Shown: positions 44,588-60,962 of the stretch, piece by piece
Layout of the letters: the number at the start of each line of letters is the position of its first letter
Position numbering within the stretch: position 1 is the stretch's first letter
Notes under the pieces: model-generated
Databases searched by the model: none
What the model was told of the DNA's origin: nothing
The model's input: the letters and a program-made list of their open reading frames with translations, nothing else
Assembly: GCF_030812255.1 (NCBI RefSeq)
Contig: NZ_JAUSSH010000002.1
Span: 124,001 to 188,000, forward strand
Length of the DNA: 64,000 nucleotides
Reading direction: 5' to 3'
DNA from: Paeniglutamicibacter psychrophenolicus
Lineage (GTDB): Bacteria > Actinomycetota > Actinomycetes > Actinomycetales > Micrococcaceae
Translations under genes and position numbers: made by a program

Positions 44588-44644
44588 GCCACGATTCTTG
44601 CGCTTCGGGTCGGTCCACTGCAAGAGGGCAACCGATCTGGACAC

Positions 44645-47530
44645 TTAGCTTCCGCAGGCACAGCCATGTTCCTGCGGAGCACTGACCTTGAGCAACCGTG
44701 GCTTGTTGCTGACCAGTGCTTCGGCAATGACCTGCACCAAGTGCCGCGAGTCGATGTCGGCCAAGTCGGCCACCTGGGTTCGGCAGCTGAACCCGTCGGC
44801 CATGACGGCTCGATCGGGACTTTCCGAAACCCTGTGCAGGATCCCTTCTGCGGCGATCTTCGCTGAAATTTCGTAGTGGCCCTTTTCCATGCCGAAATTC
44901 CCGGCCAACCCGCAGCAACCGCTGGAGACCTCCACGTCGCACCCCATGGATTCCAGGACCTTGATGTCGTCCGCGTACCCCATCACCGCGTACTGGTGGC
45001 AGTGTGGCTGGACCAGGAGTTTTTCCGCGGCCAGCGGCGGTGCCCAGTCGATGCTGCGCAGGAACTCGGAGACGGTCTTCGTCGCACGGGAAACTGCAGC
45101 GGAGCGAGGGTCCTCGGGCAGCAGCTCCAGCAGGTCCGACCGCATGACCGCCGTGCACGAGGGTTCCAACCCCACAATGGTTTTCCCGGCGGAAACCTGC
45201 GGATGCAGGATGTCCAGGGATTTTGTCAGCTTGGCCTTTGCCGCCGTGAGCTGCCCGGTGGTGATCAGGGTCAGCCCGCAGCAGACCCCCGGCCCGGCGA
45301 GTTCAACCGAGCAACCGGCGGAGCGCAAGACCTTGACGGCGTCCAACGCGATGTCCGGGCCCATTGCATCGGTGAAGGAATCAACCCACAAGACCACCGG
45401 GGGTCCGTTGCCTGAGACGGGACCGGGACCGCCGACACTGGAAGAAACAGCCGGAGCGGCGTTCAGGGCACGGAAGGGCCGGGCAGGGAACAGCGGAAGC
45501 TTCCGGCGTGGATCGGCCCCGGCAAGGACCATCATCAGCCGCGTCATCGGCTTGAACCGTGTTGCGAAGTTGATGAGTGGGCCCAATCGCCCCACCATCG
45601 ACAGCCACTGGGGAAGCCTCCCGAAGGTGTAGTGCGCCAGGGGGCGCACCTTCCCCTTGTAGGTTTGGAAGAGTGCCTCGGACTTGAACATGGCCATGTC
45701 GATGCCGGTGGGGCAATCGTTGGCACACGCCTTGCAGCTCAAACAGAGGTCCAGGGCTTCATGCACCTCGGGGGAGGCCCACCCCAGCTCGACGATGCCG
45801 CCATTGAGCATTTCCTGCAGGACGCGGGCACGTCCCCGGGTTGATTCTCCTTCGTCGCGAGTCGCTTGGTAGGAGGGGCACATGAATCCGCCCTGGGCGT
45901 TGTTGTCCGCGCGGCATTTGCCCACCCCGACGCAGCGGTGCAGGGAGTCGGTGATGTTTCCGGCATCGTGGCTGAAGGCGAATCCGTCCGTGGCCATGAG
46001 GGTTTTGGCCGCGGGGCGGCGAAGCGATGCATCGAATGGATCCGGATCCACCACGACGCCGGGGTTCATGATGTTTTGCGGATCGAGGAGTTCCTTGAAG
46101 GTCTTGAACGCATCGATGGACGCTTTCGAGTACATGGTCGATAACAGCTCGCTTCGGGCCCTGCCGTCGCCGTGCTCGCCGGAAAGCGAGCCCCCGTACT
46201 TGGCCACGAGTTCGGCCGCCTGGTCCAGGAACGATCGCATGGTTTGCGGGGTCGAATCGAAGGGGAAGTCGATGCGCAAGTGCACACAGCCATCGCCAAA
46301 GTGCCCGTAGGCCAACCCCGAAAGACCTTCCCGCTCCATCAGGGCCGCGAGGTCCCTGAGGTAGTCGCCCAAATGTTCCGGGGGAACCGCGGAGTCCTCC
46401 CAACCGGGCCAGGCCTGGGCGCCGGCGGCGGTGCGGCCGGCAAGCCCTGCCCCGTCGGCGCGTACCTGCCAGAGCCGCGTGGCCTCCGGTCCCGACGGCA
46501 AGACAACGGCGTCCAGGGCGCCGGCCGCACGCACCATTTCATGGGCGGCGGCCACGGCCTCTTCGGTGCTTTCGCCGGCAATTTCCACCATGAGCCAGCC
46601 TTTGCCCCGGGGAAGCTCCGGCAAGTCGGCACCTGATTTTGACTTCCGGATGGTGTCGACGATGGCCGCGTCGAGGCCCTCGAGCGCCAAGGGCTTGAAC
46701 GGCAGCAACGTTGGCACATCATCTGCCGCAGTGGCCATGTCGGGGTAGCCCAGAACCGCGAGGGCCGGTGCCGCGGACACCGGCACCAGGGAAATCTCGG
46801 CGGACAGGATGATGCCGCAGGTGCCTTCGGTTCCCGTCAACGCGGCAGCCAGGTTCCACCCGTTTTCGGGCAAGAGGTGCTCAAGGCTGTATCCGGAGAT
46901 CTGGCGTCCGAATCGGCCGAACTCCGTGCGCAGCAGTGCCAGATTGGCCATCACAAAGGCCTCGAGCCCCGGAACCATGTCGATGGCTTCCTTGCCGGAA
47001 CCCACGTCCAGCACCTCTCCGTTGCCTGCGAGCCAGCGCAGGCTGCGGACGTTGTCGGCGGTGCGTCCGTAGGCCAGCCCGTGGGGGCCGCACGCATTGT
47101 TGCCGATCATCCCGCCCAGGGTGCATCGCGTGGCGGTTGAGGGGTCCGGGCCGAAGCGCAGGCCGTGCAGTCCCGCGGCCTGCTGCAGGTCCGAAAGAAC
47201 AACTCCGGGCTGGACCACGGCGGTGCGTGCCTGTGGATCGATGGAGATGATCTTGTTCATGTACCTGCCGACATCCAGGACCATGCCAGGACCCACGGCG
47301 TTGCCCGCGCACGAGGTGCCGCCGCCGCGGACGGTGACGGGCAACCCGTGTTCCGCGGCGACCTTCACTGCAGCAATCACGTCGTCTTCGTGCCGGGGCA
47401 TGACGACGACCTGCGGGATGACCCGATAGTTCGAGGCATCGGTGGAATACTGGGCCAGGCGGACCGGGCTTGCATCCACGTCGCCCTCGAGCAGGCTGTC
47501 CAGCTTCGTGATTGCTGCCGTGATGTTCAT
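44645..47530 (-). CDS. FAD/[4Fe-4S] D-2-hydroxy-acid dehydrogenase, YdiJ-like (D-2-hydroxyglutarate type)
   Basis: The 961-residue fusion protein has an N-terminal FAD-binding domain of the VAO type (VRGGGTSCAGNAVGPGMVLD near 70, TLGGMIGNNACGPHGLAYGR), the FAD-oxidase C-domain with SGEHGDGRARSELL near 455, a ferredoxin-like part with two cysteine clusters (HRCVGVGKCRADNN, CLSCKACANDCPTGIDM) and two CCG-type domains (GVCCGLTL, SSGCCGLAGNFGMEKGHY). This matches E. coli YdiJ and Pseudomonas D-2-hydroxyglutarate dehydrogenases. In this operon with HglS it would oxidise D-2-hydroxyglutarate to 2-oxoglutarate. D-lactate or glycolate dehydrogenase are alternatives. It starts at ATG 47530 after AAGGAACG, 29 bases from the preceding gene. 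Confidence 0.87.
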   Translation of the reverse strand: MNITAAITKLDSLLEGDVDASPVRLAQYSTDASNYRVIPQVVVMPRHEDDVIAAVKVAAEHGLPVTVRGGGTSCAGNAVGPGMVLDVGRYMNKIISIDPQARTAVVQPGVVLSDLQQAAGLHGLRFGPDPSTATRCTLGGMIGNNACGPHGLAYGRTADNVRSLRWLAGNGEVLDVGSGKEAIDMVPGLEAFVMANLALLRTEFGRFGRQISGYSLEHLLPENGWNLAAALTGTEGTCGIILSAEISLVPVSAAPALAVLGYPDMATAADDVPTLLPFKPLALEGLDAAIVDTIRKSKSGADLPELPRGKGWLMVEIAGESTEEAVAAAHEMVRAAGALDAVVLPSGPEATRLWQVRADGAGLAGRTAAGAQAWPGWEDSAVPPEHLGDYLRDLAALMEREGLSGLAYGHFGDGCVHLRIDFPFDSTPQTMRSFLDQAAELVAKYGGSLSGEHGDGRARSELLSTMYSKASIDAFKTFKELLDPQNIMNPGVVVDPDPFDASLRRPAAKTLMATDGFAFSHDAGNITDSLHRCVGVGKCRADNNAQGGFMCPSYQATRDEGESTRGRARVLQEMLNGGIVELGWASPEVHEALDLCLSCKACANDCPTGIDMAMFKSEALFQTYKGKVRPLAHYTFGRLPQWLSMVGRLGPLINFATRFKPMTRLMMVLAGADPRRKLPLFPARPFRALNAAPAVSSSVGGPGPVSGNGPPVVLWVDSFTDAMGPDIALDAVKVLRSAGCSVELAGPGVCCGLTLITTGQLTAAKAKLTKSLDILHPQVSAGKTIVGLEPSCTAVMRSDLLELLPEDPRSAAVSRATKTVSEFLRSIDWAPPLAAEKLLVQPHCHQYAVMGYADDIKVLESMGCDVEVSSGCCGLAGNFGMEKGHYEISAKIAAEGILHRVSESPDRAVMADGFSCRTQVADLADIDSRHLVQVIAEALVSNKPRLLKVSAPQEHGCACGS

Positions 47531-47559
47531 ATTCTTGCGTTCCTTGGTTCCCGTGGAGA

Positions 47560-48699
47560 TTAGACCGGAAGTGGCTTGCCGCGAAGTTCCATGGCACGGC
47601 GCACCCGATCCTGCGCCAGGCTGCGTGCTGCTTCGTGCGTGGTTCCGTTCAAGCGCTCCGCCTCGTCGAGCACGGTGGATACGTTGGCGCGCAACTTGGT
47701 GGAGATGGCATCAAAGATCTGGTCTGTTTCCGGCCGGAAGGCCGAGTATCGTGAATCCATGGCAAACGCGGCGCTCACGACTCCGCCGGCGTTTGCGACA
47801 AAGTCCGGGATCACCGTGACGCCGGCCTGGCGCAAGGCGTTTTGGGCAGCAGCGTCGGTGGGAAGGTTCGCGCCCTCGACCAGCAGCTTGCCCTTGATCC
47901 GCGTGGCGTTGTCGCCGTTGAGCACGTCCTGCAGGGCCGCGGGCACGACAATGTCGGCGTCCACGAAAAGCTCCGAGCCGGCCTTGATCTTCAGCTCCGG
48001 GAGGTTGCTGACGAATGCGTCCCCGAAATCGGCCCGCAGGCGCAGCAGCTCGGGGATGTCCAGTCCGTTTGGGTCATGCAGGGCGCCGGCCGCCGTGGAT
48101 ACGGAAACCACCTGGAATCCCAGGGCGTGCAGGCGTTCGGCCGTGGCATGGCCCACCGCGCCAAAGCCCTGCAAGGCCACGCGGCGACCGGCCAGGCCCA
48201 TGGTTGCCACGGCTTCATCGACGACCTCGGCGACGCCGAAGCCGGTCACGCCCAGCTGGTCGTAGGGGACGCCGCCCAGGTCGTAGGGAGTCCCCACCGC
48301 GGCCCCGCGGTCACCGAGTTCGTCGTTGATGATTGCCGCGTCGTTCTCCGTCAGGCCCATGTCCAGGCCGAAGACGTATTCCTCGGGCACTTCGTTGCGC
48401 AGCTTGCGCACGAAGGAACGCAGGATCTCTTCCTTGTAGGGGGAGGCGGGGTCGGCGCAGATGCCGGCCTTGGCCCCGCCGTAGAAGAGATCGACGCTGG
48501 CCCATTTCCAGGTCATGACGCGCGCCAGGCGCGCGACTTCCTCGGCCGAGACATTGGGCTGCATGCGGGTCCCGCCCTTGCCCATGCCGCGGGCGGTGTT
48601 GTCAATGACAAGCACGCCCTTCATGCCGGTCTTGTGGTCACTGACCGCAACGATCTTTTCCGGTCCCCACTGGTCCATCAGGTCAAATACGTTGGCCAC
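47560..48699 (-). CDS. Glu/Leu/Phe/Val-family amino acid dehydrogenase
   Basis: The 379-residue protein has the family's substrate lysines (MGKGGTRMQPN, FYGGAKAGICADP), the catalytic Asp region GLDMGLTENDAAII, and the Rossmann motif LQGFGAVGHATAERL near 170. VEGANLPTD and the ending loop FVANAGGVVSAAF complete it. It reversibly deaminates an amino acid to the 2-oxo acid with NAD(P)+. It is shorter than standard glutamate dehydrogenases (410-450). Flanked by AmaB and the HglS/YdiJ steps, and with no aminotransferase in the cluster, it may act on 2-aminoadipate, or recycle glutamate. GTG 48699 follows GAGGAGCAGG. Confidence 0.85.
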   Translation of the reverse strand: MANVFDLMDQWGPEKIVAVSDHKTGMKGVLVIDNTARGMGKGGTRMQPNVSAEEVARLARVMTWKWASVDLFYGGAKAGICADPASPYKEEILRSFVRKLRNEVPEEYVFGLDMGLTENDAAIINDELGDRGAAVGTPYDLGGVPYDQLGVTGFGVAEVVDEAVATMGLAGRRVALQGFGAVGHATAERLHALGFQVVSVSTAAGALHDPNGLDIPELLRLRADFGDAFVSNLPELKIKAGSELFVDADIVVPAALQDVLNGDNATRIKGKLLVEGANLPTDAAAQNALRQAGVTVIPDFVANAGGVVSAAFAMDSRYSAFRPETDQIFDAISTKLRANVSTVLDEAERLNGTTHEAARSLAQDRVRRAMELRGKPLPV

Positions 48700-48746
48700 G
48701 AGTCCTGCTCCTCATTGAATAAGTTGTTTGCCGTACGGGTGATGCG

Positions 48747-48784
48747 TTGGTGGGGGCCATCCGCACACGAATGGCCCCCACCAA
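48747..48784 (-). terminator. perfect 14-bp hairpin between amaB and the amino acid dehydrogenase gene
   Basis: TTGGTGGGGGCCAT (48747-48760) pairs perfectly with ATGGCCCCCACCAA (48771-48784) around a 10-base loop in the 97-bp gap. No T-tract follows on the minus strand, so it may be an attenuator or an RNA-stability element inside the operon. Confidence 0.6.
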
Positions 48785-48796
48785 CCGTTGTTGGTA

Positions 48797-50326
48797 TTAG
48801 ATGAATTCAACGCCCTGGGCCAGCGGCAGCTTGCCCGAGTAGTTGACGGTGTTGGTTGCCTGGCGCATGTAGACCTTCCACGAATCCGATCCCGATTCGC
48901 GACCTCCGCCGGTTTCCTTCTCGCCGCCGAAGGCGCCGCCGATTTCCGCCCCTGAGGTGCCGATGTTGACGTTGGCGATGCCGCAGTCGGAGCCGGAGGC
49001 CGCCATGAAGCGTTCGGCTTCGCCCTGGTCCTGGGTGAAGACCGAGGAGGAAAGGCCCTGTGGGACCTCGTTGTTCAGCGCGATGGCCTCGTCGAAGTCG
49101 CTGTAGGTCACCACGTAGAGGATCGGCGCAAACGTTTCGTCGTGGACGACCTGGGTCTGGCTCGGCATCCGGACAATGGCCGGCTCAACGTAGTAGGCGT
49201 TTGGAAACTCGTCGGCCAGGACACGCTTGCCACCGGTGAGGATGGTGCCGCCCTGCTCCTGTGCATCGACGAGGGCCTGTTCCATGTCCTTGAAGCTGCG
49301 CTCGTGGACCAGCGGGCCCACGAGGTTCTTCTCATCGAGCGGGCTGCCGATGCTCAGCGTGCCGTAGGCCTGCACCAGCTTTTCGGTCAGCTGGTCAACG
49401 ATCGATTCGTGGACGATCAGGCGGCGCATGGAGGTGCAACGCTGGCCCGCGGTTCCGACGGCCGAGAACACGATGCCACGCAGGGCCAGGTCCAGGTCGG
49501 CGGTCGGGGAAACGATCGCGGCATTGTTGCCGCCCAGCTCCAGCAGGGCCCGGCCGAAGCGTTCGGCGACCTGGGGTGCGATTTCGCGGCCCATGCGGAC
49601 CGAACCGGTTGCCGAGAGCAGTGCAACACGGGGATCCTTGACAAGGAGCTGGCCGCCTACGCGGTCGGTCACGATGAGCTGGTGGATATCGGCAGGTGCC
49701 TGGCATTCGCGTACCGCACGTGCCAGCAGGGCGTGCGAGGCCAACGCGCTGAGCATGGTGATTTCGGACGGCTTCCAGACCACGGTGTCGCCGCAGACCA
49801 GGGCCAGGGCGGTGTTCCACGAGTAGACGGCGACCGGGAAGTTGAACGCGGAGATCACGCCGACAACGCCGAGCGGGTGCCAGGTTTCCATGAGGCGGTG
49901 GCCCGGGCGTTCCGAGGGCATGGTCTTGCCGTAGAGCATGCGTGACTGTCCGACCGCGAAGTCGCAGATGTCGATCATTTCCTGGACCTCGCCGAGGGCC
50001 TCGGAGGTGATCTTTCCGGCTTCGGCCTGGACAATCACGGCCAGGTCTTCCTTGTGCTCGGTGAGCAGTTCGCCCCAGCGCTTGATGAGGTTGCCGCGCT
50101 CCGGGGCCGGGACCTCGCGCCAGGTCTTGAATGCCGCATCGGCCTTGCCGATGGCGGCGTCGACCTCGTCAGCGCCATGGGAACGCAGCTGGGCGAGCAC
50201 TTCACCGGTCAGCGGGGAGAAGGACGAGCGGTCGGTGCCGTACGCCGAGGCATCGACGCCACAGGCTTCGAGGGCGGCCTTGACGCGTGTGGTCAGGACA
50301 CTGCTCTGGGTAAGGGTCTCAGTCAT
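48797..50326 (-). CDS. amaB: L-2-aminoadipate semialdehyde dehydrogenase (ALDH7/antiquitin type)
   Basis: The 509-residue enzyme is a clear ALDH7 member, which oxidises 2-aminoadipate semialdehyde (in equilibrium with piperideine-6-carboxylate) to L-2-aminoadipate. Visible are GVISAFNFPVAVYSWNTALA, LLELGGNNAAIVSPTADLD, the nucleophile in FSAVGTAGQRCTSMRR near 300, and the ALDH7 hallmark ending GSDSWKVYMRQATNTVNYSG with LPLAQGVEF. The start ATG 50326 has AAAAAGGAAAAC. HglS lies upstream and the amino acid dehydrogenase downstream in the same operon, which fits lysine breakdown through pipecolate or saccharopine. Confidence 0.92.
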   Translation of the reverse strand: MTETLTQSSVLTTRVKAALEACGVDASAYGTDRSSFSPLTGEVLAQLRSHGADEVDAAIGKADAAFKTWREVPAPERGNLIKRWGELLTEHKEDLAVIVQAEAGKITSEALGEVQEMIDICDFAVGQSRMLYGKTMPSERPGHRLMETWHPLGVVGVISAFNFPVAVYSWNTALALVCGDTVVWKPSEITMLSALASHALLARAVRECQAPADIHQLIVTDRVGGQLLVKDPRVALLSATGSVRMGREIAPQVAERFGRALLELGGNNAAIVSPTADLDLALRGIVFSAVGTAGQRCTSMRRLIVHESIVDQLTEKLVQAYGTLSIGSPLDEKNLVGPLVHERSFKDMEQALVDAQEQGGTILTGGKRVLADEFPNAYYVEPAIVRMPSQTQVVHDETFAPILYVVTYSDFDEAIALNNEVPQGLSSSVFTQDQGEAERFMAASGSDCGIANVNIGTSGAEIGGAFGGEKETGGGRESGSDSWKVYMRQATNTVNYSGKLPLAQGVEFI

Positions 50327-50371
50327 GATGTTTTCCTTTTTACGTAGGTTTCTTGGGGGAGGGGTGGTGGA

Positions 50372-51796
50372 TTAGCGGGCGGCGTCGAGCGCTGCTGCGT
50401 CGGACACGATGTGGATGCCCAGTTCCCGGGCAAGGCCGGCAACCGAGAGATCTTGCTGTTCTTGGTAGAGCACGTTGGGGTCGATCACTGTATTGCCGAC
50501 GATCTCCGACATGCGGTCGATGTCGTAGTTGGTTCCGTCCCGGGCCTCGTCCTTCGAACCTTGCTCGGTGAGGTTCGACTGGAAGATGCCGGCTGCCGAT
50601 CGAGGCAGAAAATCCTCATAGACAATTGGTTCGGGAACGGCGATGCCCTGGGCGATCAGCTCGCTGAGCTTGACCGTGGCGGCAAGCTTCGTGGCGGCCA
50701 GGGCATCTCGTTCCAGCCTGAAGGTGAAGTAGGCCAGACCCTGCTCGGCCAGTTCCTTCTCCGTGCGTGGCAGGTTCTCTTCCCATACGCCGCGGGCGAC
50801 GTCGGTGCGCTTCGCGCCGGGCTGGGACTTGAGCCGTCGATCGGTCTCGGCGACCATGCGGTCGTAGAGGTCCCTGCCTGCCGGGGTCAAGGCGATGCCG
50901 CGTGCTTCGACCTCGCCAAAGCGTACGCGCAGGTTGCCGGGCTTGATGCTCCCATCGGGGTGGAGGAACATGCGGTCCTCGCCCAAGGCACGGAACGAGG
51001 TCTGGCGAAGCAAGACATCCGGTCCGTCCCACCGCGGAGGGCCCTGGATCTCGTCGATCATCTCGATGCCCAGCGCTTCCATGCGGCGGTATAGGTCATC
51101 GATGTCCAGCACGCGTGGTGTCAGGTGGTTGATGTGCGTGCTGCCAACTCCGCCAATGTCGGCGGCAACGGCCGAGATGGCTTCTAGGCGTCGGTACCAT
51201 TGGTGGTTCACCGGTTCGCCGGACAGTTCAAAGGCCGCTGTCGCCAGTGCCAGCAGGCGTTGGGCAGATTCTTCGTCCAAGCCGCCCTCACTTGCGGAGC
51301 GATCCGCCAGCTCCAACAGTTCCTGGCCGAAAAGCTCGCGCTTGTCCAGGAACGCGCGGAGTTCGGCCTGGAGCTCGTCGTCGAAGAAGCGCGGGTCCTC
51401 GCCGGCCAACATGGAGGTGAAGACGCGGAACGGGTTCTTCGCCAGTTCCTCGGAGTCGATGGGGCGGAACGCGGTGGAAACCACCGGGACCGCGCTCGAC
51501 GACGCATCACGCAGGTCGTAGAAACCAACTGGGTGCATGCCAAAAGCGGCAAAGACGCGTGCAACCTGGGACATCTCACGTTCGGAACCGACCCGGATGG
51601 CACCATGGCGTTCGGCAGTGACACGGGAGATGGTGCCGAGGCGCTCGGCCGCAGCACCGTGCACGGCCAAGAACTCCTTGTTGACTTGCGTCGAAACATC
51701 CACCAACGTGTTGTAGGCGGGGACTTCGCTCCCGTACATGGTGGATAGGCTCTTGGCGAATGCCGCGCGGAGTTCCCAAAGGGGCTTGAAACTCAT
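50372..51796 (-). CDS. hglS: 2-oxoadipate dioxygenase/decarboxylase HglS (DUF1338)
   Basis: HglS is a non-haem Fe(II) enzyme that turns 2-oxoadipate into D-2-hydroxyglutarate with O2 and release of CO2. The 474-residue protein has the DUF1338 motifs: VTAERHGAIRVGS with His64 and Arg68 in the H-x3-R spacing of the Pseudomonas enzyme, GVGSTHINHLTPRVLDID with the second metal His near 226, and RFGEVEARGIALTPAG with the probable Glu ligand near 290. ATG 51796 follows AAAGGACC; the longer in-frame N-terminus does not fit the family. It lies 53 bases after the FAD oxidase gene and 45 before amaB. Confidence 0.92.
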   Translation of the reverse strand: MSFKPLWELRAAFAKSLSTMYGSEVPAYNTLVDVSTQVNKEFLAVHGAAAERLGTISRVTAERHGAIRVGSEREMSQVARVFAAFGMHPVGFYDLRDASSSAVPVVSTAFRPIDSEELAKNPFRVFTSMLAGEDPRFFDDELQAELRAFLDKRELFGQELLELADRSASEGGLDEESAQRLLALATAAFELSGEPVNHQWYRRLEAISAVAADIGGVGSTHINHLTPRVLDIDDLYRRMEALGIEMIDEIQGPPRWDGPDVLLRQTSFRALGEDRMFLHPDGSIKPGNLRVRFGEVEARGIALTPAGRDLYDRMVAETDRRLKSQPGAKRTDVARGVWEENLPRTEKELAEQGLAYFTFRLERDALAATKLAATVKLSELIAQGIAVPEPIVYEDFLPRSAAGIFQSNLTEQGSKDEARDGTNYDIDRMSEIVGNTVIDPNVLYQEQQDLSVAGLARELGIHIVSDAAALDAAR

Positions 51797-51849
51797 CGGG
51801 GTGGTCCTTTCTTGATGACGGCTAGGTCGATACGGAGATAGGGGCATGG

Positions 51850-53043
51850 CTAGATGATGTGGACTTCCCGGACCAGTGCCGAGTCGTCGATGAAGCGATC
51901 CGCCGAGAACGTGGATGGATCCATGAAGGACGGTCGGCCCAGGTATAGGTCGCGCATGAGCTCGCCAACCGCAGGGCCCTGCAGGAAACCGTGCCCGGAG
52001 AAGCCGGTGGCGTAGAAGAAACCGGGAAGTTTGTCCGAGGCACCGATCAGCGCATTGTGGTCCGGGGTGTTTTCGTAGAGCCCGGCCCACCCGAATTCCA
52101 GATCGGGTTCCACCAGTGACGGCGCGCAGATTGTGGCAGCCGCGTTGAATTCCGGAAGCCATTCGTGGCTGAAGTCCCTGCCGAATCCGGCGGCCTGGTT
52201 TTGGTTGGAGATCCCGACAAGCATTCCGTTGTTGTAGTTGTGGAAGTACATGGTGGTGGAAAGATCCAAGGTGAACGGCACCGTTGGGTAGGCCGTTGCG
52301 CGTTGGCGGGTCATGCCGATTTGGCGGCGGACCGGGGTCACCGGCATTTCAACTCCCACCATTTGACCCACGTGTCGGGACCAGGCGCCGGCCGCACAAA
52401 CAATGGCGTTCGTTCGGATTGTTCCGCGGTTGGTGGTGATCGACTTGATCCCGCCGTTGCCGACCTCGATGTCAAGGGCCTCCGTGCCGGTCAGCAACGT
52501 CGCGCCGGCTGCGCGCGCTGCAGCGGCATATGCGGCAACGGCCTTTGCAGGTTCGGCAAATCCGTCATCCGGCGAATAAGCGGCGGCGAGAAGTGCATCC
52601 TTGTTCAGGAAGGGATTTATGGCCAGGGCCTCGTCCGGGGAAACCATGCGATTGACGCTGCCGAAATCGTTTTGGAGAACACCGCTGCGCTCGCAGTCAA
52701 GTACTTCTTGTTCGTTCCGGCACAGGAATAGGTAACCAACCTTTCGAAGTCCGATGTCAACGCCAAAGCGCTCGCCGAATCTTCCGTAGGCGTCAAGGCT
52801 GCGCTTGCCGAGCGCTATGTTTGCCGGATCCGAAAACGTCGATCGCACCCCGCCCAGCGGTTTCGCTGATGAACCGGTTCCAAGCTCTCCACGTTCGATC
52901 AGGACAACGTTGCGCACACCGGCTTCTGCCAGGTGAAAGGCAGTGCTGACTCCCATGATGCCTCCACCAATGATGACGACGTCGGCATCAGTTGGCTGGG
53001 CGACGCCGGTGGGGAGCGCTAGGGGTACGACTTGATTGACCAT
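51850..53043 (-). CDS. FAD-dependent amine oxidase of the DAO/SoxB type, probable pipecolate oxidase
   Basis: ATG 53043 behind AGGAGTGACC gives 397 residues. The N-terminal Rossmann loop is VVIIGGGIMGVSTAFHLAEAG. The substrate-domain segments PVTPVRRQIGMTRQR and the C-terminal FSGHGFLQGPAVGELMRDL with the FAD tail are typical of sarcosine oxidase beta/DadA relatives. As first gene of the operon with HglS and AmaB, it is best read as the oxidase of a cyclic or secondary amino acid such as L-pipecolate (the role of AmaA in Pseudomonas). Sarcosine, proline or D-lysine oxidation cannot be excluded from sequence alone. Confidence 0.8.
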   Translation of the reverse strand: MVNQVVPLALPTGVAQPTDADVVIIGGGIMGVSTAFHLAEAGVRNVVLIERGELGTGSSAKPLGGVRSTFSDPANIALGKRSLDAYGRFGERFGVDIGLRKVGYLFLCRNEQEVLDCERSGVLQNDFGSVNRMVSPDEALAINPFLNKDALLAAAYSPDDGFAEPAKAVAAYAAAARAAGATLLTGTEALDIEVGNGGIKSITTNRGTIRTNAIVCAAGAWSRHVGQMVGVEMPVTPVRRQIGMTRQRATAYPTVPFTLDLSTTMYFHNYNNGMLVGISNQNQAAGFGRDFSHEWLPEFNAAATICAPSLVEPDLEFGWAGLYENTPDHNALIGASDKLPGFFYATGFSGHGFLQGPAVGELMRDLYLGRPSFMDPSTFSADRFIDDSALVREVHII

Positions 53044-53086
53044 GGTCACTCCTGTGGTGGTAGTCGATTCGAACAATCGGTTACGG

Positions 53087-53098
53087 GTTATATACAAC
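53087..53098. promoter_or_regulatory. 12-bp motif before the oxidase operon (shared with the ABC operon)
   Basis: GTTATATACAAC here reads GTTGTATATAAC on the minus strand, 44 bases before the FAD oxidase start. It matches GTTGTGTATTAC at 54917-54928 in 10 of 12 positions. A regulator site shared by both operons, perhaps for the GntR/FCD protein, is inferred. Confidence 0.5.
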
Positions 53099-53174
53099 AC
53101 TCTAGACGTGATGCCGCTCACGTCAAGCTATAGTTGCTGATCGGAATTGTTTAGATTTCCTATAGGGAGAATCC

Positions 53175-54122
53175 ATGCGGTCTTGGACCTTGAATCAACT
53201 TCGCACATTCATCGCCGTTGCCAGGTCGGGGACCATGGGCGTGGCTGCCGCAGAGCTTGGCTACACGGTCGGCGCAATCTCCCAGCAGATGCAGGCGCTC
53301 CAGCACGAGGCGGGGGCGGCACTGTTTATCAAGGACGGCAGGAAGTTGGTGCTTTCGGATGCCGGCCATCTCTTGCTTAAGCACGCCTTGGGCATCATTG
53401 CGGCCGACGAGGAGGCCGACCAAGCGCTTGGCGACCTCAGCGACGGAATCAGCTCGACCGTACGCGTGGGGGTCTTTGGGTCATCCGCGTTGATGTGCGT
53501 ATCCCCGGCGATCGCGACGCTGGCCCTGGAGGATCCGCATATTCGGGTGCTCTTGCAGGAGATCGATCCCGAGGCGGCTGTTGAGGCCGTACGTTCGGGC
53601 TTGGTGGATATTGCGCTTTGCCTGGAGTACTCGGACCTGCCGATTTCCGGCGGGCAGTCCTTGAATCAACAAGCGCTTGTGACTGAGCCCCTACTGGTTG
53701 TGGCGCATGAGGGTTTCCCGGAGCAAGGTGTCGGGTCTTCCGAGGCGGGATTCCTGCCGGGGGAGCTGAGTGAGGGGCATGAGTGGTTGCTGCCCCACGA
53801 TCGGTCCCTCTTTGGCCAGACAGCGCGGAGGCTGGTTGCAGAGATGACCAGTGGTTATGTAAAAACTCACGTCGTTACCGACACGGCTCTTGCCCTGGCG
53901 TTGTCCTCCGCTGGACATGGCCTCACCATAGCCACGCAGAGCATGCTCGACTTCCATCGGAACCCTGTTCGGACGCTATTTGTATCAAGTCTGGAACGTA
54001 CCTTGGTTTTGCTGGCGAAAAATGCCAGCCTTCAGCGCCCCAGTGCCCGCCTGGTTCATCAGGCACTGGTGCGTGCAGGGCGGGACTTTAGTGAGGCCGT
54101 GCGTAGTCAAGGTGATCGATGA
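53175..54122 (+). CDS. LysR-family transcriptional regulator
   Basis: The 315-residue protein has a LysR winged helix (SWTLNQLRTFIAVARSGTMG, then GYTVGAISQQMQALQHEAG) and a two-lobe effector domain. It is divergent from the lysine/pipecolate-type operon across 131 bases, the classical place for its activator. The middle carries a non-conserved stretch (residues 170-205, VAHEGFPEQGVGSSEAGF) longer than usual. Its 3' end overlaps the convergent GntR gene by 35 bases. AGGGAGAATCC precedes ATG 53175. Confidence 0.87.
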   Translation: MRSWTLNQLRTFIAVARSGTMGVAAAELGYTVGAISQQMQALQHEAGAALFIKDGRKLVLSDAGHLLLKHALGIIAADEEADQALGDLSDGISSTVRVGVFGSSALMCVSPAIATLALEDPHIRVLLQEIDPEAAVEAVRSGLVDIALCLEYSDLPISGGQSLNQQALVTEPLLVVAHEGFPEQGVGSSEAGFLPGELSEGHEWLLPHDRSLFGQTARRLVAEMTSGYVKTHVVTDTALALALSSAGHGLTIATQSMLDFHRNPVRTLFVSSLERTLVLLAKNASLQRPSARLVHQALVRAGRDFSEAVRSQGDR

Positions 54123-54753
54123 GGAGTTTCTCTAGAAGCTCGATATCCCCGGCAACTAGGGCCCGCACGATTGGAAGGTGTTCCTCGGCGCTTTCCCTCA
54201 GGACGCCACGTTCGGCCAGCTGGTACGAGCCGCGCACGCGCGATTGATCGCGAAGATTTTCCACGATTGCAGTCAAGCGCTGATTGTCGAGAATCCCGAT
54301 GATTGCCATGTGAAACGATTGGTCGGCATCCAGATAAGCGAGCATGTTGTCGGGGCGCGCTTGAGCCAAGGTATCGTCGGCGAGCCTTTCGACCTCAACT
54401 ATCTGCTCCTCAGTGAGTCCCTTCCTGGCGACCTGGAGAACCGATGGAACCTCCACTAGCATGCGGAGGTCGTAAATTTCCTGGCGGTCCTTGTCTGTCA
54501 TTTCGACAACACGGAACCCCCGATTCTTGACCACCTCGAGCAACCCCTTTGACGCCAGTTCCATCATGGCTTCACGCACCGGGCTGTTGGAAACCCCTAG
54601 TTGGGGTGCCAGGGAGTTCGCAGAGTAGATTAATCCAGGCTTCATGTCCCCGGCCATCAAGGCACGGCGGACCACCGCAATTGCCTCGTCCTTCAAGGTT
54701 CCGCGGCCACCCAGAATCCGAACTCCGGCAATCTCTCGGTATGTGTCTTGCAT
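54088..54753 (-). CDS. GntR-family regulator with FCD domain
   Basis: The 221-residue protein has a GntR winged helix (RRALMAGDMKPGLIYSANSL, then GVSNSPVREAMMELASKGLL) and an all-helical FCD domain. The latter has the metal-type ligand pattern DADQSFHMAI and HLPIVRALVAGD. FCD regulators sense organic and amino acids. It is divergent from the amino acid ABC operon across 225 bases and convergent with LysR, so it probably represses the transporter and perhaps the catabolic operon. Ribosome site AGAAGGAG lies before ATG 54753. Confidence 0.88.
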   Translation of the reverse strand: MQDTYREIAGVRILGGRGTLKDEAIAVVRRALMAGDMKPGLIYSANSLAPQLGVSNSPVREAMMELASKGLLEVVKNRGFRVVEMTDKDRQEIYDLRMLVEVPSVLQVARKGLTEEQIVEVERLADDTLAQARPDNMLAYLDADQSFHMAIIGILDNQRLTAIVENLRDQSRVRGSYQLAERGVLRESAEEHLPIVRALVAGDIELLEKLLIDHLDYARPH

Positions 54754-54916
54754 GGCACTCCTTCTGGGCTTGCGGTGATTTGTCCCAGCCTATGTCACGA
54801 CCGCTGGGAGGGATTTAATGCACGGGATTGCGTCGATGTCGTCAGTAGGACTCGAGATCAATTTCCGCTAAAGCCTTGACATGTCGACTTCTTCCTACCA
54901 GAGTAATCGACAACCG

Positions 54917-54928
54917 GTTGTGTATTAC
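54917..54928. promoter_or_regulatory. 12-bp motif before the amino acid ABC operon
   Basis: GTTGTGTATTAC lies 51 bases before the substrate-binding protein gene and matches the motif before the oxidase operon (GTTGTATATAAC) in 10 of 12 positions. A nearby TCACACTAGA also resembles TCTAGAGTG beside the other copy. Confidence 0.5.
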
Positions 54929-54978
54929 AGATCACACTAGACCGAACATCTCTCGTTTAGAACCCAAGGAGCCACACA

Positions 54979-55827
54979 ATGAAGTACCGTTCCGCGCTCG
55001 CACTCGGGGCTTCCGCAGCCCTCATGACTTTCTCCCTTGCTGCTTGTGGGGGATCAACTTCCGCCAGCACCGTTGCCAGCGATTGTGTTCCGCAGAGCGA
55101 AGTGACAACAATGCAAAAGGGCATCCTCACTGTTGCGGCTCCTGAATTTCCTCCTTTTTCTTCCGTCTCAAATGGCAAGGCCACGGGCATCGATGCCGAT
55201 GTGGTCCTGGAATTCGCAGCCAAGAACTGCCTTGAGGTCAAAATGGAACCAACCTCCTATGCAGGAACCATTCCCGCAGTCCAGTCAAACCGTGCAGATG
55301 TAGCCATCGGTTGCTACTACCGCACCGCCCAGCGCGCCGAAATCGTCGATATGTCAGACCCGGTCTACACCGATGAAATGGCCTCGATTTCCGCGGACAA
55401 CGTTGTTGCCGTCAGTGCCATGGAGCCGCTCAAGGTTGGAACCGTTGATGGCTACCTCTGGGTTCCCGACATGAAAAAGGTGATGGGTTCGAATCTCACC
55501 ATTTACCCAAGCGCCGTTGAAATGCAGGCAGACCTCAAGGCCGGCCGCATCCAGGTCGGACTCGACGGATTCGGGTCGGCTGCCCATATGTACAAGGACG
55601 ATGCAAAGTTCAAGGTTGCTGCAGTGCAGAAGGACCCCCGGGTGGTGGCCTCCACAGAGCCCGCACAGATCGGGTTCCCGCATACCAAAGGCAACACGAG
55701 CTTGACTCAAGCTCTGAATGCCAGCATCAAGACCATGCATGACGATGGCACCATCGTGAAGCTGCTGGTCGCCAACGGCCTTCCGGAATCGGCAGCCGAA
55801 GTCGGCGCACCCCGTCTCATCAAGTAA
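54979..55827 (+). CDS. amino acid ABC transporter substrate-binding lipoprotein
   Basis: The 282-residue precursor has a lipoprotein signal: basic MKYRS, hydrophobic stretch, and lipobox LAAC with Cys23. The mature part is a polar amino acid-binding family 3 protein (TVAAPEFPPFSSVSNGKATG, IDADVVLEFAAKN, RTAQRAEIVDMSDPVYTDEM). It should catch an amino acid outside the cell and pass it to the ABC permeases below. With catabolic genes for lysine/pipecolate next door, a cyclic or basic amino acid is likely, but the binding site cannot be read by eye. AAGGAGCCACACA precedes the ATG. Confidence 0.9.
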   Translation: MKYRSALALGASAALMTFSLAACGGSTSASTVASDCVPQSEVTTMQKGILTVAAPEFPPFSSVSNGKATGIDADVVLEFAAKNCLEVKMEPTSYAGTIPAVQSNRADVAIGCYYRTAQRAEIVDMSDPVYTDEMASISADNVVAVSAMEPLKVGTVDGYLWVPDMKKVMGSNLTIYPSAVEMQADLKAGRIQVGLDGFGSAAHMYKDDAKFKVAAVQKDPRVVASTEPAQIGFPHTKGNTSLTQALNASIKTMHDDGTIVKLLVANGLPESAAEVGAPRLIK

Positions 55828-55852
55828 CGGTCTCGCAGCTAAGGAATCCTTC

Positions 55853-56854
55853 ATGACATCGTCTCTGGCCAGCCCGGTTTCACGGCAACAGATCCCCTTC
55901 ATCAGTGGAGAGCAACTGCGGGGAGCGCTTAATCCAACCGCAGCAGTCAACGCGCTCCAAGCGGTGCTTGAAGCCGGCCTGGACCCCGAGTCAGATGCCC
56001 CGCGTACCCGCGTGACCACAAGCTCCGGGCTCTTCTTGCAAATGCCATCGACGTGGAAGGACTCGGTGGGGACCAAGCTTCTCACGATCACAGAAACGAA
56101 TGCCTCGAATGGGAATCCCGTCATCCAAGGGATTTATGCGATATTTGGTGGCAGTTCCCAAGCTCCACTTGCCATCCTGGACGGAATAGAACTCACCAAC
56201 CTGAGAACCTCGGCCGTTTCGGCACTTGGAGCGCGACTTGCAGCAGGTCGTGGGCCGAAGCATCTCCTGGTCTTCGGTACAGGTGTGCAAGCATGGGCCC
56301 ATATCCAGACGTTTGCCGATGTCTTTGAAATTTCAGCGATCACGGTTGTGGGGCGGAACCCAAGCAGCGCACAGGCAATCATTGACCGCGCCAAAGCCGA
56401 ACTCGGGTTGGATGGCGCGGTTGGGGCAGCTTCTGAAGTTTCCCGGGCAGATCTAATCATTTGCTGTACGGCGTCTGTCGAACCACTTTTCGACGGCAAC
56501 CTCGTTAGCGAACACGCAGTGGTCGTGGCAATGGGAGCCCACGAACCCACCAGCAGGGAACTGGACGATGTGCTGCTTCACCGATCCAATGTCGTCGTGG
56601 AATCTCGCGACAGTGCGTTGCGAGAAGCAGGAGACGTAATCCAGGCAATTGAATCCGGAGCAATTCGTGACGCCTCTGAATTGATGTCGCTCGCGGAGGT
56701 GGTCTCCGGGGCCAAGATTCCCATCGAAGGTCGCCCCACGGTATTTAAGACAACAGGCATGCCATGGCAGGACCTTGTCATTGCCCGCGCTGTTCTGGAC
56801 GTACTTCACAATCCAAGTGCTCTCTCCGAAAATGCATTGCCGAGCAACGCGTAA
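55853..56854 (+). CDS. ornithine cyclodeaminase/mu-crystallin-family reductase
   Basis: The 333-residue protein has the OCD/mu-crystallin fold: a VGTKLLTITETNASNGNPVI strand near 75, the Rossmann site LVFGTGVQAWAHIQTFADV near 140, and SRADLIICCTAS, AMGAHEPTSRELDD and TVFKTTGMPWQDLVIARAVL motifs. Members include ornithine cyclodeaminase and cyclic imine reductases such as delta-1-piperideine-2-carboxylate reductase. In an operon with an amino acid ABC transporter, near a pipecolate-type oxidase, the imine reductase role fits well. That reaction would turn D-lysine- or lysine-derived imine into L-pipecolate. It starts 25 bases after the binding protein gene. Confidence 0.82.
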   Translation: MTSSLASPVSRQQIPFISGEQLRGALNPTAAVNALQAVLEAGLDPESDAPRTRVTTSSGLFLQMPSTWKDSVGTKLLTITETNASNGNPVIQGIYAIFGGSSQAPLAILDGIELTNLRTSAVSALGARLAAGRGPKHLLVFGTGVQAWAHIQTFADVFEISAITVVGRNPSSAQAIIDRAKAELGLDGAVGAASEVSRADLIICCTASVEPLFDGNLVSEHAVVVAMGAHEPTSRELDDVLLHRSNVVVESRDSALREAGDVIQAIESGAIRDASELMSLAEVVSGAKIPIEGRPTVFKTTGMPWQDLVIARAVLDVLHNPSALSENALPSNA

Positions 56855-56875
56855 ATGAAAGTCGAAGAAACCACC

Positions 56876-57649
56876 ATGACGCAAAATGCACAAACCGCAG
56901 TCAAAAACGTTGTCCAAGTTCGGAACCTGGCCAAGTCATACGGGCCCCTCACCGTCCTTAAGGACGTTTCGTTGACGGTCGCCGAGGGCACCGTCACAGC
57001 AATGATTGGTCCCAGTGGTGCCGGCAAGAGTACGGCTCTCAGATGCATGAACCTTTTGGAGAAGCCCGATAGTGGCGAGATCATTATCGACGGCCACGTC
57101 ATCAATGCGGGCAAGAAGATTTCACCCAAAAACCTGGCGGAATTGCGCCGAAGTGCTGGAATGGTTTTCCAACACTTCAACCTGTTCCCGCACATGACGG
57201 TGCTCAAGAACATCAGCCTTCCCCAAGAGCGGGTATTGGGCCGCAGCCGCGAGGAAGCCAATACGAAGTCCATGGAGCTTCTGCGCCGAATGGGACTGGC
57301 CGAAAAGGCCGATCACTACCCTTCCCGCTGTTCGGGCGGCCAACAACAACGAATTGCCATTGCCCGTGCCCTGGCGCTGGAGCCCCGGGTCATGCTATTT
57401 GACGAGCCTACCTCGGCATTGGATCCCGAAGTTGGGGTCGAAGTCCTTGAAGTCATGAAGGAACTGGCTGCCGAAGGAATGACCATGGTGGTTGTTACAC
57501 ATGAAATGAGCTTCGCCGCGAATGTCTCCAATGAACTGGTGGTCATGGCCGACGGAAGCATCATTGAAAAGGGAGATCCCCGCGAAATCATGAGCGACCC
57601 GCAGCATGAACGCACGCGCCGATTCCTGCGCGCCGTTCTGGAGCGCTGA
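56876..57649 (+). CDS. amino acid ABC transporter ATP-binding protein
   Basis: The ATPase subunit has Walker A GPSGAGKST, Q-loop FQHFNLFPHMTVLKN, signature CSGGQQQRIAIARAL, Walker B VMLFDEPTSALDPE and switch VVTHEMSFA, all intact. It matches polar amino acid importers (GlnQ/HisP type). ATG 56876 gives 257 residues; an in-frame ATG directly after the previous stop (56855) would add seven residues (MKVEETT) without a clearer ribosome site. The next gene, a permease, starts 4 bases after its stop. Confidence 0.92.
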   Translation: MTQNAQTAVKNVVQVRNLAKSYGPLTVLKDVSLTVAEGTVTAMIGPSGAGKSTALRCMNLLEKPDSGEIIIDGHVINAGKKISPKNLAELRRSAGMVFQHFNLFPHMTVLKNISLPQERVLGRSREEANTKSMELLRRMGLAEKADHYPSRCSGGQQQRIAIARALALEPRVMLFDEPTSALDPEVGVEVLEVMKELAAEGMTMVVVTHEMSFAANVSNELVVMADGSIIEKGDPREIMSDPQHERTRRFLRAVLER

Positions 57650-57653
57650 ACCC

Positions 57654-58292
57654 ATGGAAATGTTGAAGGCAATTGCCGTAGGCCTACCGCTGACGCTCTT
57701 GATCACGGTACTGGCTCTCATGATTGGAACCGTCGTTTCGCTGCCTCTGGTAGCGGGACTTCGCAGCAAAAACCGTGCAGTCTGGTTGCTGGCGCGTGGG
57801 ACCATAGATCTGCTTCGCGGCATACCACCGGTCGTCTGGCTATTCATTCTCTACTATGGCGTCTCCATCGGTCAGCTGAAAATGTCAGCGATCCAGGCGG
57901 GTGTCATCGGATTGGGCGTGGTTTCCGGCGCCTACTTGGCGGAGATATTCCGCGGGGCCATCGGTTCGGTTCCCAAGGGCCAATGGGAGGCCAGCTCAGC
58001 CTTGGGCTTCAGGAGCGGTACGGCTTGGATCAAGGTGGTCGGTCCCCAGGCCTGGCGGACAGCCATCCCGTCCTACACCACCTATGCCATTGGACTGCTC
58101 AAGGATTCTTCGATTGCGTCCACCATCGGTGTCGCGGAGATCGTGTTCATGTCCAATCAATACGCCAGACAGTCGGGTGAGGGCATCCTGATCTTCTTCA
58201 TTGCCGCGGGCGTATACATTCTGCTGAGCATGCCGCTCGGAATCTTCTCACGTCATCTAGACACCAAAATGCGGAAGGCGGTTGCACGATGA
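57654..58292 (+). CDS. amino acid ABC transporter permease 1
   Basis: The 212-residue membrane protein has five spans and the inner-membrane permease signature of the His/Glu/Gln type (GVVSGAYLAEIFRGAIGSVP, then GQWEASSALGF). That E-A-A loop contacts the ATPase. LLRGIPPVVWLFILYYGV is also typical. ATG 57654 lies 4 bases after the ATPase stop. It pairs with permease 2, whose start overlaps its stop in ATGA. Confidence 0.92.
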   Translation: MEMLKAIAVGLPLTLLITVLALMIGTVVSLPLVAGLRSKNRAVWLLARGTIDLLRGIPPVVWLFILYYGVSIGQLKMSAIQAGVIGLGVVSGAYLAEIFRGAIGSVPKGQWEASSALGFRSGTAWIKVVGPQAWRTAIPSYTTYAIGLLKDSSIASTIGVAEIVFMSNQYARQSGEGILIFFIAAGVYILLSMPLGIFSRHLDTKMRKAVAR

Positions 58293-58945
58293 ACGCCCTA
58301 TTGCCGGACATCCTCACCATCCTGCCCACGCTTCTAGGCGGTCTGAAAATCAGCCTGGCGTTGACGTTCTTCAGCCTGCTCATCGGTCTTCCGATTGGCC
58401 TGGTCTTCTCATTTGGCATCATCGCCCAAAACAAGGCCTATCGCTACCTGTGTGTCTTCTTCGTCGAGGTCGGACGTGGCGCGCCGGCGCTGGTCCTCCT
58501 GCAGCTGATGTACTACGGCTTGCCCAACGTAAACATCACCCTGTCGTCCTTGGTCTCGGCCTGCCTGGCATTGATTTGGACAACCTCGGCCTACACTGCT
58601 GAACTGCTCCGCGGTGGAATGCAGGCTGTTCCGGGCGGGGAACTTGAAGGATCCGATGCATTGGGTATGCGCCCGGTGGACAGGCTTCGTTTCATCGTGA
58701 TTCCCCAGGGTCTGCGCATCGCATTGCCCTCGTTGATGGGCTTCGCCGTGTTGCTCTTCCAAGCGACTTCCCTTGCCTACACGGTGGCCGTGCCGGAACT
58801 CATGAGCCAGGCGTACTCCACAGGTTCATCGACCTTCAAGTACCTGCCTGCATTCATCGCGGCAGGGCTCATCTATGCCGCCATATCCATCCCCGCCACG
58901 TGGTTGTCGGTTCTTACGGAAAAGCGGCTCAGCAGGCATCTGTAA
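58289..58945 (+). CDS. amino acid ABC transporter permease 2
   Basis: The 218-residue second permease also has five spans and the E-A-A-like loop (AYTAELLRGGMQAVPGGELE, then GSDALGMRPVDRLRFIV). ATGA overlap with permease 1 shows coupling. Two different permeases, one ATPase and one binding protein make a complete importer. An inverted repeat (GGCGGGGTCG at 58972 with CGACCTCGCC at 58998, one mismatch) lies after the stop and could end the operon. Confidence 0.92.
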   Translation: MNALLPDILTILPTLLGGLKISLALTFFSLLIGLPIGLVFSFGIIAQNKAYRYLCVFFVEVGRGAPALVLLQLMYYGLPNVNITLSSLVSACLALIWTTSAYTAELLRGGMQAVPGGELEGSDALGMRPVDRLRFIVIPQGLRIALPSLMGFAVLLFQATSLAYTVAVPELMSQAYSTGSSTFKYLPAFIAAGLIYAAISIPATWLSVLTEKRLSRHL

Positions 58946-59041
58946 GCCTGGTTTTCAACTTATCCAGCGTTGGCGGGGTCGCACAATTCAAAGGTTTCGA
59001 CCTCGCCAGATCCCTATTCGGTCCTAGTCAAAGGAAACGCC

Positions 59042-60917: not shown

Positions 60918-60962
60918 ATTACCCTGCAAATGCATTATGCGTATCCTCAGAGTGGTCCCACG

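Follow-up and report, generated by a model that had tools for sequence, protein, structure and literature searches.

The window analysed here, a stretch of 64,000 nucleotides from Paeniglutamicibacter psychrophenolicus (contig NZ_JAUSSH010000002.1, positions 124,001 to 188,000; genome size 4.57 Mb), contains two adjacent operons that, judging from their sequence, are likely to form an inducible regulon for the utilisation of L-pipecolate and its conversion into 2-oxoglutarate. The catabolic operon lies on the minus strand and encodes, in this order, a DAO-type FAD oxidase (51850..53043, 397 aa, PF01266; a predicted L-pipecolate oxidase yielding piperideine-6-carboxylate, P6C), the 2-oxoadipate dioxygenase/decarboxylase HglS (50372..51796, 474 aa), the aldehyde dehydrogenase ALDH7 (48797..50326; P6C, or 2-aminoadipate semialdehyde, dehydrogenase), an amino acid dehydrogenase of the Glu/Leu/Phe/Val (ELFV) type (47560..48699; predicted L-2-aminoadipate dehydrogenase) and a YdiJ-like FAD/Fe-S dehydrogenase (44645..47530; predicted D-2-hydroxyglutarate dehydrogenase, D2HGDH). 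The start of HglS is most likely at 51796 and that of the oxidase at the ATG at 53043, instead of at the ends of the respective open reading frames (ORFs). On the plus strand, a second operon (54979-59638) comprises genes for a family 3 amino acid solute-binding lipoprotein (SBP_bac_3, 54979..55827, PF00497), a mu-crystallin-like reductase (55853..56854, OCD_Mu_crystall, PF02423; predicted to form L-pipecolate from piperideine-2-carboxylate, P2C), the ABC ATPase (56855..57649, PF00005) and two permeases (BPD_transp_1, PF00528; 57606..58292 and 58289..58945) of an importer, and a short SDR protein (58970..59638). Between the operons lie a LysR-type regulator divergent from the oxidase operon (53175..54122, plus strand, PF00126 and PF03466) and a GntR/FCD regulator (54088..54753, minus strand, PF07729 and PF00392), whose genes converge with a tail-to-tail overlap of 35 bases (54088-54122). 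All genes named in an earlier sequence-only reading of this DNA are present where it had placed them, with family matches far beyond chance; the SDR gene, which lies just past the end of the region considered there, is probably part of the transport operon.

For comparison, 197 Micrococcaceae genomes were searched, which gave 14 HglS-bearing loci including that of the window. A wider scan of named genomes gave at least 549 confirmed HglS relatives from 592 candidates, of which the best 80 were kept (L037-L116); as these are the best-scoring loci, the set is biased to close relatives. Together with the 13 other family loci they make up 93 loci, 91 of them distinct (L038 and L043 are repeats). 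A further 31 loci were sampled evenly from the order beyond the family, and two of them repeat earlier loci (L130 and L140). Since GC3-based ORF calling missed some HglS and oxidase genes in high-GC loci, counts were taken from tblastn.

The HglS protein matches PF07063 with 462 bits and NF050083 with 721 bits, above the curated cut-off of 600, and aligns with HglS of Pseudomonas putida (6w1g) at E 3e-80. The metal triad H64, H224 and E295 aligns with H70, H226 and E294 of 6w1g, the specificity arginine R68 with R74, and S400 with S403, while V402 is replaced by R399. The H-x3-R motif pointed out by the sequence-only reading is indeed H64/R68 and corresponds to H70/R74; these two residues, like H224, E295 and S400, are invariant in 14/14 family sequences. 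The roles of these residues come from the work on the P. putida enzyme, whose authors predict activity on 2-oxoadipate for every member that keeps the arginine (PMC7286885). HglS of the window is accordingly predicted to turn 2-oxoadipate into D-2-hydroxyglutarate. Actinobacterial HglS models are already among the NCBI curated families (the mycobacterial origin of the model was read from its name), so that this trunk of the pathway must be regarded as known. In four genomes of the order sample (G372, G459, G255 and G208), the HglS match falls into two pieces within one open frame, 123-147 bases apart; the pieces are continuous in the model, and an in-frame insertion common to the genus is likely.

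Directly downstream, ALDH7 passes the equivalog cut-off of NF050084 (814 bits, cut-off 730) and aligns with Pcd (6rtr) at E 2e-215. The oxidase upstream of HglS belongs to PF01266 (243 bits), and its nearest solved relative is 1y56_B (E 2e-62), deposited as a sarcosine oxidase, which we take to be an archaeal L-proline dehydrogenase subunit and which would then catalyse the proline analogue of pipecolate oxidation. The model of the AmaA-type L-pipecolate oxidase (NF050086) is matched with only 66 bits against a cut-off of 600, although the enzyme may still work alike. In other actinobacteria, the same slot can be held by L-lysine 6-aminotransferase (LAT). LAT makes P6C from lysine, and among the 91 distinct loci the slot upstream of HglS is filled by the DAO-type oxidase in 60 cases, by LAT in nine, by an ELFV dehydrogenase in three and by a hydantoinase pair in one, with none of these in 18. 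Anywhere at the locus, the oxidase was found 63 times and LAT ten times, but never both, an exclusion with a chance of 2e-6 under the assumption of independent loci, which does not hold. Similarly, the 31 loci of the order sample have ALDH7 near HglS in 28 cases, the oxidase in 14, LAT in four and the latter two together in none. A quick tree calculated for 121 HglS proteins, in which 35 of the 118 inner branches are open, requires at least four changes of the oxidase/LAT label. When scanned directly, five LAT genes passed TIGR03251, and the remaining ones are tblastn matches to one of these five. Because LAT in the same slot makes P6C from lysine, the oxidase most likely makes P6C from pipecolate; by this analogy, it is probably an L-pipecolate oxidase.

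A corresponding entry from lysine was not seen. The locus has no gene converting lysine to P2C or P6C; the best LAT candidate in the host genome reaches 134 bits against the TIGR03251 cut-off of 520.8, and a search of the 14 HglS-bearing family genomes (host included) at E 1e-60 yielded no LAT, while both positive controls were recovered. Four marginal matches to the saccharopine/lysine-dehydrogenase domain PF03435 exist in the host genome (best 26.2 bits, Pfam gathering cut-off 25.1); such scores do not suffice to assign either of these dehydrogenases, yet a lysine or saccharopine dehydrogenase may be present.

The ELFV dehydrogenase (PF00208, 183 bits) is a short form of 379 aa. According to docking of Escherichia coli glutamate dehydrogenase (GDH), the side-chain carboxylate of glutamate is held by the pair K92/S380 (PMC8784811). 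In the window's enzyme and its relatives, the lysine is kept, but the S380-equivalent is alanine (Ala310) and the A163-equivalent glycine in 29/29 aligned rows (left out were the repeats L038 and L043, L034, which is almost a copy of L033, and L067, whose N-terminal part is out of register), so that the Lys/Ser pair of a glutamate-specific enzyme is missing. The ordinary GDH of the same genome, encoded by a separate gene, has the pocket K/A/S. We read the two changes as a wider side-chain pocket. The ELFV dehydrogenase occurs in 12 of the 197 family genomes, all of them among the 14 with HglS. From this pocket and this company, the protein is predicted to be an L-2-aminoadipate dehydrogenase. 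Among the 50 matches listed by VIA-align, 48 are GDHs, one is a GudB complex and one a phosphinothricin dehydrogenase; a leucine- or phenylalanine-type dehydrogenase was set aside, both being absent from these 50 matches, which does not by itself exclude them.

The last enzyme of the operon unites FAD-binding (PF01565), FAD-oxidase C-terminal (PF02913), 4Fe-4S (Fer4_8) and CCG domains in one chain, a combination that we take to be a feature of YdiJ. A D2HGDH homologue directly follows HglS in L023, L078 and L101. The reductase of the importer operon (PF02423, 151 bits) has mu-crystallins as its best solved matches (4bv8 and 2i99; E 8e-36 and 8e-32); lysine cyclodeaminases follow only at a great distance (E 6e-13). 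Its position corresponding to an aspartate of alanine dehydrogenase 1omo, presumably the catalytic aspartate of cyclodeaminases (D228 in P. putida OCD), is occupied by histidine in 12/14 and phenylalanine in 2/14 sequences. It is thus a member of the OCD/mu-crystallin superfamily that lacks the cyclodeaminase aspartate, as seen for ketimine reductases. Given the mu-crystallins as best matches and the replaced aspartate, it is read as an imine reductase, with P2C as predicted substrate and L-pipecolate as predicted product.

The importer itself would presumably carry pipecolate. The best NCBIfam match of its solute-binding protein is a lysine/arginine/ornithine model, though a weak one (69 bits, cut-off 256). 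In L027 and L031 the importer is swapped for an AgcS-type symporter, and in L052 (Nesterenkonia) for an SSS symporter nearest to PutP. AgcS and PutP-like SSS families carry neutral or imino acids and are, to our knowledge, not known for cationic amino acids. A DadA-like gene stands in or beside the importer operon in L024, L029 and L037 and would there supply the P2C needed by the reductase. The SDR protein matches NF005754 with 246 bits (cut-off 167); homologues are found beside the importer in L024, L029, L033 and L034 and within the HglS operon of L052.

Gene order was compared across Micrococcaceae, a check proposed by the sequence-only reading. All five catabolic genes occur in order in 9/14 family loci (window, L024, L025, L027, L028, L029, L032, L033 and L034); L026 has four of them, with part of the fifth at its contig end, L031 has four with the D2HGDH homologue elsewhere on the opposite strand, and L023, L030 and L035 depart from this order. 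Seven of the 14 loci (window, L024, L025, L029, L032, L033 and L034) have the importer block, reductase included, next to the operon. In L052, HglS, SDR, oxidase, ALDH7 and reductase stand in a row, followed by the SSS symporter. In the set of 93 loci, ALDH7 is near HglS in 76, the oxidase in 65, D2HGDH in 32, the ELFV dehydrogenase in 30 and the reductase in 15. The trait as a whole is patchy, HglS being present in 14 of the 197 family genomes and in 2 of 12 sampled genomes of the window's own genus; it was found in 33 of 297 genomes of the order-wide sample. A P6C dehydrogenase above cut-off is present in 11 family genomes which, like those with the ELFV dehydrogenase, are nested in the HglS set. 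Spread of the locus by plasmids was considered and rejected, as megablast gave 26 plasmid records of which none covers more than 80 % of it; among the matches listed (10 of the 26 records), only the ALDH gene was hit. Relatives of HglS do occur on 77 plasmid records, 76 of them at less than 60 % identity. On two alphaproteobacterial plasmids (NZ_CP014797.1 and NZ_CP136760.1) such relatives lie less than 400 bases from ALDH genes, so that the pair is linked there, too.

Both operons are preceded by promoter-like and operator-like sites of the same layout. Before the oxidase, TTGACG-N16-TAGAGT (53099..53126, minus strand) shares its last base with the palindrome TGTTGTATATAACC (53086..53099, minus strand), a degenerate copy with two departures from the GGTTATATATAACC of relatives. 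Before the importer operon, TTGACA-N17-CAGAGT (54876..54904, plus strand) is followed downstream by the palindrome ACAACCGGTTGT (54910..54921, plus strand). Among relatives, GTTATNNATAAC precedes the oxidase in L024, L026, L027, L029, L032, L033, L034, L037 and L039, and also the AgcS gene in L027 and HglS in L052; ACAAYCGRTTGT precedes the solute-binding gene in the window, L024, L032, L033, L034 and L037, and L029 has the oxidase-type palindrome only. For all 18 palindromes (17 exact ones and the degenerate one of the window), a promoter-like match (TTGACN, a spacer of 16-18 bases, NANNNT) lies within the preceding 60 bases on one strand; the same holds for 510 of 100,000 random positions, or about 1 % expected given two strands. 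The pattern of ACAAYCGRTTGT alone is not rare (a one-mismatch match in 32 of 100 shuffles of the window) and gains its weight from its conserved place. L023, L025, L028, L030, L031, L035, L041 and L075 gave no exact palindrome, be it of the oxidase or the importer type; the sites are apparently limited to a part of the family. A GntR homologue adjoins the operon in 9/13 other family loci (L024-L029 and L032-L034). The simplest reading of this layout would be one shared repressor for both operons.

As for the surroundings, a gene for an EamA/RhtA-like exporter (60930-61889), located downstream, adjoins a LysR gene, and a 52 % homologue stands by the importer of L025. An Rfam search of 44000-60000 gave nothing at gathering scores. 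The GC content is 56-61 % for the importer and regulator genes (53175-59638) and 60-66 % for the catabolic genes, a hint of mosaic origin; in six relatives examined, the gap between the two sides is smaller.

Three family loci depart from the operon. In the genome G176 (L030), genes for hydantoinases A and B, HglS, the ELFV dehydrogenase and D2HGDH stand in a row, and neither the oxidase nor ALDH7 is beside them: the HyuA-HyuB pair (L030:6618-13520) takes their place. None of 23 matches in this genome reaches the cut-off of the P6C dehydrogenase. Its HglS is sister to that of L032 of the same genus (SH-aLRT 95), which has the full operon. The pair matches caprolactamase models with 496 and 241 bits, below the cut-off of 1000, and no relatives of hydantoinase A were found at the very strict E 1e-200 in 149 family genomes, a search run with no positive control. 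Provided that the ELFV dehydrogenase acts on 2-aminoadipate, this compound should be supplied by HyuAB, whose substrate in this one genome would then be the lactam of 2-aminoadipate, 6-oxopipecolate, for which we know of no catabolic enzyme. G022 (L035) and G105 (L023) have HglS, but neither the ELFV dehydrogenase nor a P6C dehydrogenase above cut-off, so that 2-oxoadipate must come from elsewhere there. In L035 (7941-12898), which belongs to the window's genus, HglS is 57 % identical and lies beside an ALDH resembling alpha-ketoglutaric semialdehyde dehydrogenase and two D-2-hydroxyacid-dehydrogenase-like proteins, all three below cut-offs; another source of 2-oxoadipate is likely in this locus. 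In L023 (4659-17318), HglS and D2HGDH are accompanied by a luciferase-like monooxygenase, an MFS transporter, an IclR regulator and an ALDH. About one in three of the actinobacterial loci examined has a D2HGDH or an ELFV-type dehydrogenase near HglS. There is roughly an even chance that HglS is a reusable trunk that takes interchangeable entry modules, namely pipecolate oxidase or LAT, each with P6C dehydrogenase, or the ATP-dependent lactamase pair for 6-oxopipecolate predicted in a single genome.

The protein families, catalytic residues, synteny and swaps at the entry step can be taken directly from the sequences; the substrates that we infer for the enzymes lead to the following route. The ABC importer would take up pipecolate, and the DAO-type oxidase would oxidise L-pipecolate at N1-C6 to P6C, which ALDH7 would convert into L-2-aminoadipate. 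The GDH-like ELFV dehydrogenase would deaminate the latter to 2-oxoadipate and ammonia, HglS would form D-2-hydroxyglutarate and CO2 from 2-oxoadipate and O2, and the YdiJ-like enzyme would deliver 2-oxoglutarate. P2C from DadA-like oxidation of D-pipecolate or D-lysine could join the same route through the mu-crystallin-like reductase, which would reduce it to L-pipecolate, and GntR, here together with LysR, may control both promoters through the palindromes just downstream of the -10 boxes. The sequence-only reading had proposed a complete lysine/pipecolate route in one locus with its own transporter and regulators, differing from Pseudomonas in the enzyme families of two steps. Its clustered path from L-pipecolate via D-2-hydroxyglutarate to 2-oxoglutarate is supported, as are the importer operon and the LysR and GntR genes, whereas the entry from lysine is not, with no lysine-converting gene in the locus and no LAT found in the 14 HglS-bearing family genomes. 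The mu-crystallin-type reductase and the amino acid dehydrogenase are likewise supported, but the departures number more than two, because the oxidase is not of the AmaA type and the putative D2HGDH stays far below the YdiJ cut-off.

Several observations weigh against this route or narrow its reach. The D2HGDH step is predicted from genomic context, the YdiJ equivalog NF049975 being missed by far (431 bits versus 1350), and the reductase remains below the cut-offs of the P2C reductase models NF004793 and NF045512 (174 versus 322 and 139 versus 400). The locus lacks a gene that would oxidise D-substrates to P2C. The host genome has DadA homologues, the best three at 30-45 % identity, but none of them is linked to the locus, and in L024 the DadA-like gene scores below the cut-off of its model (176 versus 383). 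The phmmer alignment served to locate the A163-equivalent, a column that MAFFT put elsewhere; moreover, the ELFV profile was partly built from family genomes that it then found. Three of the loci without an exact palindrome (L025, L028 and L031) have at least four of the catabolic genes, and L037-L116 yielded just four oxidase-type and two importer-type palindromes, the repeat L038 counted. All five catabolic genes are present in 20/93 loci, and the 31 loci outside the family have the ELFV dehydrogenase near HglS in two cases and D2HGDH in none, so that the five-gene operon is mostly a trait of Micrococcaceae.

It is also conceivable, though unlikely, that the locus serves lysine utilisation, with an importer that takes up lysine and unlinked enzymes (a D-lysine oxidase or an aminotransferase) making P2C for entry through the reductase. 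Reduction of P2C is required only where P2C arises, the solute-binding protein leans, however weakly, towards the lysine/arginine/ornithine model, and DadA homologues as well as nine weak aminotransferase matches are found elsewhere in the genome; in Pseudomonas, P2C comes from D-lysine or is formed by an L-lysine aminotransferase (PMC12930750). However, no gene of the locus converts lysine, neither the host nor the 13 other HglS-bearing family genomes gave a LAT, and relatives replace the importer by AgcS and PutP-like symporters. We give somewhat less credit to the notion that the importer and reductase adjoin the catabolic operon by chance and serve another pathway, for example for D-proline or another cyclic imino acid. 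The reductase relative 6t3e is a pyrroline-2-carboxylate reductase, the importer half has a lower GC content (56-59 % versus 60-66 %), and L028, with all five catabolic genes, as well as L039 and L042, with three each, lack this importer. This is countered by the importer block flanking the catabolic operon in half of the family loci, by the retention of the reductase where the importer is replaced (L027, L031 and L052) and by the palindrome-after-promoter layout common to both promoters.

Two further alternatives concern single enzymes. That the reductase is a lysine cyclodeaminase forming L-pipecolate directly from L-lysine is very improbable: it shares the superfamily PF02423 with such enzymes, which appear among its weaker PDB matches (E 6e-13), but the aspartate of 1omo is replaced in all 14 sequences and mu-crystallin is the best match by a wide margin; we rejected this identity on the missing aspartate. 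Improbable, if to a lesser degree, is an ordinary GDH that recycles nitrogen in place of the predicted 2-aminoadipate dehydrogenase, with an unlinked aminotransferase making 2-oxoadipate. Its appeal lies in fold and sequence, both closest to GDH, and in the aminotransferase that Pseudomonas has at the 2-aminoadipate step; yet the S380- and A163-equivalents are invariantly changed with the lysine kept, the gene was found only in HglS-bearing genomes (12 of 197), and a separate canonical GDH is present.

If the pipecolate route is correct, some actinobacteria eat pipecolate by means of a dedicated regulon, whose regulators and palindromes could be considered for use as a pipecolate sensor. 2-Aminoadipate would be deaminated by a specialised dehydrogenase without an aminotransferase, which could be useful for making or sensing this compound, and the lactamase variant would provide an enzyme for 6-oxopipecolate that can be put to the test. 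6-Oxopipecolate is formed as a by-product in penicillin fermentation and has been proposed as a biomarker of ALDH7A1 deficiency; pipecolate triggers systemic acquired resistance in plants (PMC7286885). With the HglS trunk already known, what is new comprises a putative dehydrogenase for 2-aminoadipate, an entry dedicated to pipecolate together with its importer and operators, and entry modules that may be interchangeable. A literature search covering titles and the beginnings of abstracts found no published description of this actinobacterial operon, nor of a 2-aminoadipate dehydrogenase of the GDH family.

Compared with known systems, the ELFV dehydrogenase shares fold and catalytic lysines with GDHs, but differs in its short form and in the alanine and glycine of its pocket. 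The hydantoinase pair of L030 resembles caprolactamase and 5-oxoprolinase-type HyuAB, whereas its scores fall short of the caprolactamase cut-off and its context predicts 6-oxopipecolate as substrate. With the actinobacterial LAT-Pcd lysine route, in which LAT stands directly upstream of HglS in 9/91 loci, the window has ALDH7/Pcd in common; its entry enzyme, however, is a DAO-type oxidase instead of LAT, and the predicted substrate is therefore pipecolate instead of lysine. At the 2-aminoadipate step, Pseudomonas has an aminotransferase where the window has a GDH-like dehydrogenase. Elsewhere in the route, the Pseudomonas counterparts are AmaD, DpkA, AmaA and AmaB (PMC12930750), although the names AmaA and AmaB for pipecolate oxidase and P6C dehydrogenase are used the opposite way in a figure legend of PMC6667623. 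The closest parallel is the D-lysine/pipecolate branch of P. putida, with the same intermediates from L-pipecolate to 2-oxoglutarate and the same catalytic residues in HglS (PMC7286885, PMC12930750). In contrast to this branch, the window has a mu-crystallin-type reductase in place of DpkA and a non-AmaA oxidase of the DAO type, and it combines all pathway genes, without a lysine-converting enzyme, in one locus.

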